A DNA stretch of 64,000 nucleotides, taken from the NCBI GenBank assembly GCA_025351345.1, contig JANXWB010000011.1, forward strand, positions 1-64,000. Reading direction: 5' to 3'. The translations under genes and the position numbers were made by a program. The DNA is from Synechococcales cyanobacterium GL140_1_metabat_312 (GTDB lineage Bacteria; Cyanobacteriota; Cyanobacteriia; Leptolyngbyales; Leptolyngbyaceae). Shown here in pieces: positions 13,289 to 16,870 of this stretch (positions are counted from its first letter, which is position 1; every line of letters starts with the position of its first letter). Below the pieces are notes generated by a model. That model searched no databases, was not told the DNA's origin, and saw only the letters and a list, made by a program, of their open reading frames with translations.

Positions 13289-13384
13289 ATGACAGCTCAC
13301 GATTTATTAACCCTTGCGCTCATGCTCAGCCCCGGCTTACTCCTTTCCGCACTAGTTATGGGAGCCTTTGCAGCGGGCGGCTGA
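13289..13384 (+). CDS. Putative 31-residue single-span membrane protein
   Basis: A short open frame with an ATG at 13289 and TGA at 13382-13384, preceded by a purine-rich AGGACAGGA. The peptide is one hydrophobic helix, HDLLTLALMLSPGLLLSALV, ending in GAFAAGG. Its size and shape are those of the small thylakoid subunits of photosystems, cytochrome b6f or NDH-1, but I could not match it to PsaI, PsaM, PsbM, PsbX, PetN, PetL or Psb30. It lies in a spacer rich in small photosynthesis-like ORFs. Real expression is not proven. Confidence 0.45.
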   Translation: MTAHDLLTLALMLSPGLLLSALVMGAFAAGG

Positions 13385-13679
13385 CTTGCCTTGTTTCTAT
13401 GCTAGCTGAATTTCCGCCAGTCGCTGTTGAAGAGAGAGTCCGGCGGTAGTGGCGAGAAAGTTTATAACTCTATATTGCCACCCACCGCATCTCTTGCCAA
13501 AGGAATTAAGTCGTCTTTTGGATGAGTATGGACGAAAATGGCATGAAAAACGCCGATCGCATTTACTTTACCTCCTAGGGTGTAACCCGAACCTCTTGCG
13601 AATCCGATATGTAATGTAACAGTGTGTTAAGGTATGTGAACAACACCCTTCATCTCCGCATAACTTGCGAGCAACCACA

Positions 13680-13892
13680 ATGTTAAATCTTCTCCTCACC
13701 ACGACTAACGGCGCAGTTCACTCCGAATTCTACCTTGTGCTTTTCAATGCAGTGTATTCCGTTGGCGCCTTGGCCGCAGGCGTTGTCGGTGCGATCGCTT
13801 GGTACAACTCAAAGCGCCCCGTTGGTTGGGAAGATCGCGCTCGTCCTAGCTTTATTCCAGCTATCAAAACCAATTTGTCTGAGGAAGTTTAA
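13680..13892 (+). CDS. Small single-span thylakoid-type membrane protein (possibly Psb35-like)
   Basis: A 70-residue protein with one membrane helix (FYLVLFNAVYSVGALAAGVV, extended to GAIAW) followed by a conserved-looking basic tail YNSKRPVGWEDRARPSFIP. The tail pattern is typical of a small cyanobacterial membrane protein family; from memory it resembles the CP47-associated Psb35 (Ssl2148) type, but I cannot confirm this by alignment. The ATG at 13680 is preferred over a TTG at 13665. A terminator hairpin follows at 13939. Confidence 0.6.
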   Translation: MLNLLLTTTNGAVHSEFYLVLFNAVYSVGALAAGVVGAIAWYNSKRPVGWEDRARPSFIPAIKTNLSEEV

Positions 13893-13938
13893 GGCTTGTT
13901 GAGGTTCTTCTCTAAATCTTAAAATTTTGAACTAGTCT

Positions 13939-14115: not shown

Positions 14116-15183
14116 ATGCCTGATCGTCCCTACCTGTCACCCAGTTCCATTGCTGCCCTTCGGGGTGAAGTGAATCTATTGCTCGACCAGTTACCCTCGT
14201 CCGCTAATGGCGACCTAATGGTACAAGCATTGACCACACTGACTGAAATTGGCCAAGCTGATAACGATCGGTTGGACTTAAAAATCCTTACTTCGACGCT
14301 GAAAGATATAGGCCGAGCTTTTCGGACCCTAGCGCCTTACCGTCACGATCGTAAAATTGCTATCTTCGGCTCGGCCCGCACCTCTCCCCAAGCGGCTGAA
14401 TATCAAATGGCAAAAGACTTTTCGGCCTGTGTTACCTCGCAAGGGTTTATGGTAATTACAGGGGGCGGCGGTGGCATTATGGAAGCCGGGAGTAAAGGTG
14501 CGGGCGATGGAAAGTCTTTGGGGCTTAATATTGAGCTGCCCTTTGAACAGGGATCTAATGCTTTCATTAATAGCAATGATATGTTAGTGACCTTTAAGTA
14601 TTTCTTTACCCGAAAACTATTCTTTCTTAAAGAAAGTGATGCCTTAGCCATTTTTCCAGGCGGCTTTGGGACTCAAGATGAAGCGTTTGAATGCCTAACT
14701 CTGAGCCAAACAGGTAAATCTGTTCCGGTCCCTATTGTTCTCATTGATAAACCCGGTGGCGACTATTGGCAAAATTGGGCCAAGTATGTAGAAAAAAATC
14801 TACTGGGTCAAGGCTTAATTAATGCCAATGATTTCAGTTTGTTTACCATTACCGATCGGCTGGATGTAGCTTGCGAAGCAATTTCGAGTTTTTATACGGT
14901 GTACCATTCCAGTCGCTATGTCGATGGAAAGTTAATTCTGAGGTTGAAAGCAGCTTTATCCGATGAGGCGATAGCAGAGTTGAACGATCGGTTTAGCGAT
15001 ATTTTGCTTAAAGGGACAATCGATCGTACTCCCGCGTTACCCCAAGAACTCTACGACGAAACCGTTGCTTTGCCTCGCCTTGTGTTGCATTTTAACCAGC
15101 GCGATCTAGGCCGATTGTACGAAATGATCAGAGCCATTAATCGGCTGGGAACCGTTCAATTTGCCCATCCTGAACGCAAGTAG
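14116..15183 (+). CDS. LOG family protein (Rossmann-fold nucleoside-monophosphate hydrolase-like)
   Basis: Long LOG-family member of 355 residues. The core (about 80-255) has KIAIFGSART, the ITGGGGGIMEAGSKGA loop and the signature PGGFGTQDEAFE, the conserved PGGXGTXXE motif of cytokinin-activating phosphoribohydrolases and related enzymes once annotated as lysine decarboxylases. N-terminal 75 and C-terminal 100 residues are extensions typical of the larger cyanobacterial type. Nucleotide binding is likely; the substrate is not established. The start has a good GAAGGAGA ribosome site 5 bases before the ATG. Monocistronic. Confidence 0.85.
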   Translation: MPDRPYLSPSSIAALRGEVNLLLDQLPSSANGDLMVQALTTLTEIGQADNDRLDLKILTSTLKDIGRAFRTLAPYRHDRKIAIFGSARTSPQAAEYQMAKDFSACVTSQGFMVITGGGGGIMEAGSKGAGDGKSLGLNIELPFEQGSNAFINSNDMLVTFKYFFTRKLFFLKESDALAIFPGGFGTQDEAFECLTLSQTGKSVPVPIVLIDKPGGDYWQNWAKYVEKNLLGQGLINANDFSLFTITDRLDVACEAISSFYTVYHSSRYVDGKLILRLKAALSDEAIAELNDRFSDILLKGTIDRTPALPQELYDETVALPRLVLHFNQRDLGRLYEMIRAINRLGTVQFAHPERK

Positions 15184-15225: not shown

Positions 15226-16440
15226 TTAATTCCCATACACCACACGTTTTGGCGTTAATAGCGACTGCATCCGAATCGACCCAAAACCCGATCGTCCTGT
15301 TGTCCCCAGCACGACATCTCCCTCCGTAAATTGACAGCGTTGAAAGCGCCCGATCGCATTTAAATACACTGTCGTACTCCTAATCTGCTGCACAAATTCC
15401 TGACTTGCCCCGTAGGATTCCGTCACTATAGAATCCGCATGACCGCTGCTGTGAGTATTAATAAATTCTATTGCTCCCGCAATATTTTCTACGCCCCGAA
15501 ACGCGACCTGCTTACGAAAACAAGGTTTATTCCAGTCCTCATCCGGCAATCGTTTCACATCTGGAAACTCTGCCACGATCGCGTCATCTCCAAAAATCTC
15601 AAATCCCTTCGATCGTAAATCAGCCCACAGTCTAACCAAACTGGATGAACTATGCTGCGGATGGACCAACACTTTTTCAATCGCATTAACAGCCTCAGGT
15701 TCACCGATATGACTTGCTAAAATCATCTCTCGGACTGAATCAACACCGCCCGACGCTGCCCAATATAAGTAACAATTCCCAATCATGGCCTCCATCACGC
15801 TGGACTTAACCTGTTCTCGGATGGCCGATCGCCAAGCCGGACGACCATAAACAATCCATTGCCTAACCCGATCGGATTCAGCGTTAAATTCAGGCCGATC
15901 CATCGACAGAACACAGCCATCAGGTAAATGCTGCGACGAGAGCGAATCTTGACATATTTGCAGCAATGCCGCATGAGTGTGGGCATTCTCTAGACTTGGG
16001 TAAAGGATGAGACTATTGGCCGTTTTCAAGCTCATCCCAATGGCCATTACTGCCACTTCCGTCAACCCCTCATAGGCTAACCCCAGCACTCCCAGCGGCA
16101 TCCAATGGCATTGTCGAGGACTATAGAACCCCGCCATCTGTCTGAGCGGGTCCGGCATTCCGGCGATTAAACTAAATGCCTTAATCCACCGCTGAATTTG
16201 TTCTTTAGTCAACCGCAACCATTCACTAGGGATGGGATTAATCTGGGCAGCAGCCTGTGATTCTGCATTGGTGCGTTGCCAATTTTGCATTGCTTCGAGA
16301 TCTAAAGTATTGGCTTCTAGAAGCAGATAATAGTTCTGCTCAAAGGCTTGGGCGATGCAACGAATTGCTGCATCTCGTTGTTGGCATGTCATCATTGCCA
16401 ACTGGTGCGATGCCGCTTGGGCCATGGCGATGCTGCTCAT
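15226..16440 (-). CDS. ProA-like aldehyde dehydrogenase paralogue lacking the catalytic cysteine
   Basis: Aligns by eye with glutamate-5-semialdehyde dehydrogenase (ProA) through its 404 residues: MPLGVLGLAYE at 114, SLKTANSLIL at 138, AIEKVLVH at 253, NTHSSGHADSIVTE and STTVYLNAIGRF near 350-370, and a C-terminal VVYGN. In true ProA the active-site Cys sits in a CNAMETLLVH-type motif; here the position is V251 (EAVNAIEKVLVH, codon GTT). The NAD(P)-loop segment YESRPNV of ProA is also changed, to YEGLTEV. It is therefore unlikely to be a working dehydrogenase and may be a regulatory or structural paralogue. The frame is intact. Confidence 0.75.
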   Translation of the reverse strand: MSSIAMAQAASHQLAMMTCQQRDAAIRCIAQAFEQNYYLLLEANTLDLEAMQNWQRTNAESQAAAQINPIPSEWLRLTKEQIQRWIKAFSLIAGMPDPLRQMAGFYSPRQCHWMPLGVLGLAYEGLTEVAVMAIGMSLKTANSLILYPSLENAHTHAALLQICQDSLSSQHLPDGCVLSMDRPEFNAESDRVRQWIVYGRPAWRSAIREQVKSSVMEAMIGNCYLYWAASGGVDSVREMILASHIGEPEAVNAIEKVLVHPQHSSSSLVRLWADLRSKGFEIFGDDAIVAEFPDVKRLPDEDWNKPCFRKQVAFRGVENIAGAIEFINTHSSGHADSIVTESYGASQEFVQQIRSTTVYLNAIGRFQRCQFTEGDVVLGTTGRSGFGSIRMQSLLTPKRVVYGN

Positions 16441-16492: not shown

Positions 16493-16870
16493 CTAACGAC
16501 TCAGGAGATCAATCACCATCGGGAAACAGACAATCGCCAGAATACAAGCCAGAATAGCCCATTGCCCTGGGAATAGCTGGGCCATTATCCAGATTAGAAG
16601 ACTCCATAGAATAATGACAGATATCAATATAATCGATCGTTTTAATGAATATTTACGGTTTACGGACTGCCAACTTTTCCCATTCCAGCCCAAAACTCGC
16701 TTTACTCCAGGCATTCCCGAAACTTGTTCAATACTCATCCGGTCATTAATAATCACGTAGACATTGGAACATTTGTCGCAGCCTAGCGCTTCTGTCAGTG
16801 CGATCGGGACAAGTCGGGCATCTCTACGACAAGGACAAGGATAATCAGAACCTGTTTCAATTTTCTGCAT
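16493..16870 (-). CDS. Small membrane protein with N-terminal Cys-rich knuckle
   Basis: A 125-residue protein with two halves. Residues 10-40 hold CPC and CDKC motifs (DYPCPCRRD, LGCDKCSNVYVI), which looks like a metal-binding ribbon. The C-terminal part has two adjacent membrane helices (IILISVIILWSLLIWIMA and WAILACILAIVCFPMVI). Similar architectures occur as conserved hypothetical proteins in cyanobacteria; I know no function. It lies between the ProA paralogue and tRNA-Gly, all on the minus strand. Confidence 0.7.
   Translation of the reverse strand: MQKIETGSDYPCPCRRDARLVPIALTEALGCDKCSNVYVIINDRMSIEQVSGMPGVKRVLGWNGKSWQSVNRKYSLKRSIILISVIILWSLLIWIMAQLFPGQWAILACILAIVCFPMVIDLLSR

Follow-up and report, generated by a model that had tools for sequence, protein, structure and literature searches.

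Gamma-glutamyl phosphate reductase (ProA) and the matching GPR domain of P5CS (TIGR00407, aldehyde dehydrogenase superfamily) are the closest described relatives of the protein studied here. In P5CS, a cysteine attacks gamma-glutamyl phosphate with formation of a thioacyl intermediate, followed by hydride transfer from NADPH (PMC8963878). The count in a phylogeny published in 2024 was a single ProA for each cyanobacterium (PMC11061531). In Synechocystis, sll0373 is annotated as the second ProA of the strain and has been treated as a second proA, its transcript being read as proline synthesis (PMC12386471). Retained, catalytically altered members of another, unrelated enzyme family have been described in cyanobacteria, namely the pseudo-orthocaspases (PMC6426788, PMC7889975). 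Within the part of the literature that was covered, a search on sll0372/sll0373 or a ProA pseudoenzyme yielded expression data and a signature-protein table, and no paper was found on a ProA pseudoenzyme or on the ProA-partner gene pair described below.

The locus considered here lies in a stretch of 64,000 nucleotides (the window) of Synechococcales cyanobacterium GL140_1_metabat_312 (assembly GCA_025351345.1, contig JANXWB010000011.1, positions 1 to 64,000). Its product shares the full-length fold of ProA and of the P5CS domain and descends from a catalytic ProA. It differs from both, together with its relatives, in carrying Val, Ile or Ala instead of the catalytic Cys, in the loss of 22 of the 58 columns that are near-invariant in functional ProAs (at least 95% one residue), and in a TIGR00407 score that for the window protein (143.6 bits) falls below the curated cut-off of 317.45. 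The operonic ProA of the Gloeobacterales forms the same pair with an upstream partner gene and is the nearest catalytic relative of the pseudoenzyme in our tree, but retains the Cys within a complete active site and is the only ProA that its genomes encode. Synechocystis sll0373, from its annotation, is possibly the orthologue of the window protein. The features discussed are as follows:

15226..16440, minus strand: ProA-derived pseudoenzyme, 404 aa plus stop, Val251 in place of the catalytic Cys (sequence, alignments, AlphaFold2)
15661..15690, minus strand: VNAIEKVLVH, residues 251-260, former Cys active-site motif (alignment)
16048..16077, minus strand: AYEGLTEVAV, residues 122-131, former YEARPNV loop, with Leu126 in place of an Arg invariant in functional ProAs (alignment)
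16493..16870, minus strand: operon partner, 125 aa, CPC...CxxC zinc-ribbon-like N-terminal part and two predicted hydrophobic helices (sequence, model)

Results

The window protein and its former active site

The first-pass annotation had read the gene as an intact 404-codon ProA paralogue with altered Cys motif and YESRPNV loop, and the intact frame and both motif changes hold: the frame is open over its whole length, VNAIEKVLVH aligns to CNAAEKLLVH of Thermotoga ProA (1o20) and CNTVETLLV of E. coli ProA, and YEGLTEV aligns to the YEARPNV loop of functional ProAs. A cysteine displaced to a nearby position was considered and ruled out, as none lies near V251 in the window protein; the closest are C223 and C307, and functional ProAs have C223 (in a GVC/GNC/GIC motif) alongside their catalytic Cys. 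All solved structures that a sequence search linked to the protein belong to gamma-glutamyl phosphate reductases or to the corresponding P5CS domain, with homology along nearly all 404 residues. The valine is not a sequencing error or a pseudogene of a single genome, because two other genomes of the genus encode the same protein (94-96% protein identity) with Val at the same place, and the dN/dS of 0.064-0.10 for the window-type protein indicates purifying selection. Judging from the sequence, gamma-glutamyl-phosphate reductase chemistry should not run in the window protein, because it is the cysteine that forms the thioacyl intermediate (PMC8963878).

The AlphaFold2 model of the protein (pLDDT 82.4, pTM 0.69) has the GPR fold; the stretch aligned with Asp374-Glu383 of the E. 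coli enzyme is poorly modelled, with residues 363-374 and 381-386 below 50. Both Foldseek and VIA-align rank GPR structures first among PDB matches (Z 33-39), and the comparison with E. coli GPR (8zon) gives Z 39.3 over the full-length fold. In the model, then, the GPR fold is retained and the catalytic residues are lost.

Conservation across the phylum

A scan of genome contigs returned 525 places encoding relatives, and the best 80 of these 525 are labelled as cyanobacterial with the exception of one Tatlockia bin. The divergent copy without Cys was present in 101 of 292 genomes sampled across the phylum, and among these 292 it was absent from the picocyanobacteria (family f2), from two Gloeomargarita genomes and from the sampled non-photosynthetic groups. 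Apart from the picocyanobacteria and a few others, nearly all cyanobacteria have this apparently dead copy. The names Gloeobacter, Gloeomargarita, Thermosynechococcus and Thermostichales, as used here for sampled genomes and orders, are putative assignments.

Whether the valine is conserved in cyanobacteria had been posed as a check, and it is: the catalytic column of 130 distinct pseudoenzyme sequences holds V in 126, I in 2, A in 1 and a gap in 1 (V, I or A in 129), and Cys in 34/34 functional ProAs. In the Thermosynechococcus genomes the motif is altered as well, to RALAIEK. Most pseudoenzymes have also replaced Arg122, Arg200, His226, Lys246, Asp374 and Glu383 (E. coli numbering), all invariant in ProA. 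In several columns the residue lost has given way to another near-invariant one (R65 to W, R200 to Y, H226 to Y, K246 to H, D374 to R), which, on the alignment, looks like new constraint and not decay. The pseudoenzyme has been selectively preserved since early cyanobacterial history and so probably has a task other than proline synthesis.

Canonical ProA in the same genomes

A second, normal ProA is encoded on another contig of the window's genome (G000:C9:308-1471), with the motif CNAIETLLVH and a score of 522 bits, above the TIGR00407 cut-off; the window protein shares about 25-29% identity with canonical ProA. The absence of any second proA, which had been named, together with proline prototrophy, as a point that would speak against a non-catalytic paralogue, thus does not apply to the window's genome, but was found in two others. 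G088 and G315 (L272, L273), each a single contig rated 99% complete, encode the pseudoenzyme and ProB and no canonical ProA, and their respective congeners G264 and G230 have canonical ProA. G315 encodes a TIGR00300 protein of 711 codons of the AgrE type, and AgrE makes proline from arginine (PMC8262935). The genome is rearranged relative to its congener, and synteny at the lost canonical proA was uninformative. No AgrE was found in G088, whose pseudoenzyme carries the usual Val. This genome is also without the neighbours that canonical proA has on either side in G264, and it likely lacks canonical proA through a segmental deletion or an assembly gap. If G088 grows without added proline and its assembly is right, either the Val protein works or another route exists.

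The putative membrane partner and the gene pair

In the window, the partner gene lies 52 bases upstream of the pseudoenzyme gene on the same strand. Its hydrophobic helices are predicted at residues 76-99 and 103-124. Among 55 partner sequences C14, C31 and C34 are invariant and C12 is kept in at least 90%, a few members having shifted Cys or Pro spacing; tryptophans are conserved too. The cysteine spacing suggests that the partner may bind zinc. It matched no Pfam or NCBIfam family above cut-off, and its fold matched nothing in the PDB at E<=0.001.

In a first clustering, 68 loci had the same small protein immediately upstream in the same orientation; with a profile search the number rose to 77 of 80 loci, two of the three loci without it being contig ends. 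Across the 292 genomes the pseudoenzyme occurs in 101 and the partner in 95, with both in 93, the pseudoenzyme without a clear intact partner in 8 and the partner alone in 2, counts that are not phylogenetically independent. The evolutionary distances of the two proteins correlate once the RibH distance is removed (r 0.65, reached in 0 of 5000 permutations, 45 loci), with RibH as a single and imperfect control gene; we regard this residual correlation as support for the link between the two proteins and not as proof of it. Overall, the adjoining zinc-ribbon-like, predicted membrane protein is the strongest functional link of the pseudoenzyme that was found.

Several side observations concern the pair and its surroundings. 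In family f21, genus g73 (L196, L205), the partner frame is short or broken and the pseudoenzyme intact, and the Gloeomargarita genomes (L194, L195) keep the partner without the pseudoenzyme. A longer relative of the partner, of about 160-200 aa and scoring 40-70 bits, is encoded elsewhere in most of the genomes (L239-L248, e.g. L243:1447-1968), and carries the motif CPxCRHGE...LTEAFAC..CRHIFT...WRWNGR.W plus hydrophobic helices. A wider operon beyond the pair was considered and rejected, as psbZ- and ribH-like genes precede the pair in just some of the lineages, other lineages having other genes there. In a Gloeobacter genome (L202) the pair is divergent from rpsL-rpsG-fusA-tuf-like genes. 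A promoter and terminator scan of the pair gave no more than chance. In the window itself, the convergent neighbour (14116-15183), with a PGGFGTQDE motif, resembles by eye the LOG/lysine-decarboxylase-like family, and two very short hydrophobic ORFs (13290-13385 and 13681-13893, about 31 and 70 aa) are small-membrane-protein-like.

Origin of the operonic gene

In each of the 9 Gloeobacterales genomes a single ProA exceeds the cut-off, and this ProA carries YEARPNV, CN, IPRGG and GAE motifs. It has the partner directly upstream in 8 of the 9, and in the remaining one (G328) the pair is split between two contigs. In the trees, whose branches are long for the window's lineage (2.0 in an earlier tree) and for the Thermostichales, the pseudoenzymes group with the Thermostichales operonic copies (support 100/100), the Gloeobacterales ProA joins these two (100/99), and canonical cyanobacterial ProA clusters with two haloarchaeal ProAs (100/100). 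A tree constrained to unite the pseudoenzyme with canonical ProA is 77 log units worse and is rejected (p-AU 0.0004). Trees and AU test thus rule out a recent duplicate of canonical ProA. Of the original view of a retained, non-catalytic paralogue with a putative role in binding or regulating proline-pathway enzymes or aldehydes, one part stands, since this is a ProA homologue without Cys under purifying selection (dN/dS), and the notion of a spare duplicate of the genome's own ProA is not supported. The Thermostichales-type operonic copies (L255, L258-L265) have lost the whole CNA motif and not just the Cys (SEGIPIYQPL and variants), and the partner is upstream in 9/9 of them.

Discussion

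Our results point to an old operonic cyanobacterial ProA that has turned pseudoenzyme and now has a non-catalytic role with a predicted membrane partner, a reading that we hold with moderate confidence. Its evolutionary side, in which the old operonic ProA became the pseudoenzyme and a ProA of another lineage carries the pathway, is highly likely to be right. Read plainly, the data make the operonic gene the older ProA in cyanobacteria, the direction and order of events being deduced. Trees and gene order support the view that the pair of a CPC...CxxC protein with two predicted membrane helices and ProA predates the split of the Gloeobacterales, where the operonic ProA still has a complete active site and no second ProA accompanies it. 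The remaining cyanobacteria have a ProA from another lineage, the sister of haloarchaeal ProA, and their operonic ProA is without the Cys and further invariant residues; the simplest account is a single loss before the Thermostichales and the rest diverged. By parsimony, the second ProA would have come first and the loss of Cys after it. Purifying selection has since maintained the pseudoenzyme, in nearly all cases next to its partner.

The two proteins probably became partners before catalysis was lost, because the partner already adjoins a catalytic ProA in the Gloeobacterales; the pseudoenzyme may therefore have retained a role in binding its partner, serving as a scaffold or a sensor. The pseudoenzyme would keep the non-catalytic half of the ancestral work and dock on the zinc-ribbon-like part of its partner, acting as a tethered scaffold or a ligand sensor, most plausibly in the glutamate/proline branch, instead of synthesizing glutamate semialdehyde. 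It might, for example, bind glutamate kinase or its product, any given ligand being a low-confidence proposal. A physical complex of the pseudoenzyme with its membrane partner could about equally well exist or not.

An alternative that we consider unlikely is that the pseudoenzyme is a regulatory subunit of the ProA/ProB pathway, which would tune proline synthesis by forming mixed oligomers with active ProA or by binding glutamate kinase, with the partner being secondary. The GPR domains of P5CS do dimerize and build larger assemblies that are coupled to glutamate kinase (PMC8963878), the GPR fold is kept, canonical ProA nearly always coexists with the pseudoenzyme, and some genomes retain the pseudoenzyme without the partner. 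However, mixed oligomers are less likely given the distance to canonical ProA (about 25-29% identity), the gene that is conserved next to the pseudoenzyme encodes the predicted membrane protein and is not proB or canonical proA, and G088 and G315 keep the pseudoenzyme without canonical ProA.

The residues near the former active-site motifs raise the alternative of an enzyme that performs a new, Cys-independent chemistry in the old pocket. Y198, R200, Y224, W227, H244, K256 and R368 are near-invariant there and are not drifting. Yet the Thermostichales copies differ at many such positions and are without the CNA motif, and together with the RALAIEK change of Thermosynechococcus this exceeds the variation normally seen in a catalytic site, so that we see new chemistry as quite improbable. 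Less probable still is a true if unusual ProA that still makes glutamate semialdehyde without the Cys. The combination of ProB and a Val-type protein with no canonical ProA in G088 and G315, with Val confirmed in the G088 copy, is what speaks for it. Against this stand the role of Cys in the thioacyl intermediate (PMC8963878), the parallel loss of R122, R200, H226, K246 and D374, which are invariant in functional ProAs, the canonical ProA also carried by almost all genomes with the pseudoenzyme, and the particulars of the two exceptions, G315 having AgrE and G088 being without the whole surrounding segment. The loss of catalytic residues and the great divergence of the window's lineage (branch length 2.0) would fit a functionless relic, but this reading is practically refuted: a dN/dS near 1 and disrupted frames would be expected of a relic, and we found dN/dS of 0.06-0.10, intact frames, near-invariant columns across the phylum and a conserved gene pair.

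Returning to the pseudoenzyme with a predicted membrane partner, we tentatively propose a cyanobacteria-specific, membrane-associated system of two proteins. Once a second ProA had taken charge of the chemistry, the original proline enzyme of the phylum may have been retained in this system as a scaffold or sensor without catalysis. If this is true, many second cyanobacterial 'proA' genes are misnamed. Moreover, the catalytic ancestor type (in the Gloeobacterales), its dead descendants and their apparent partner would all be extant, and the step from enzyme to pseudoenzyme would be directly testable.
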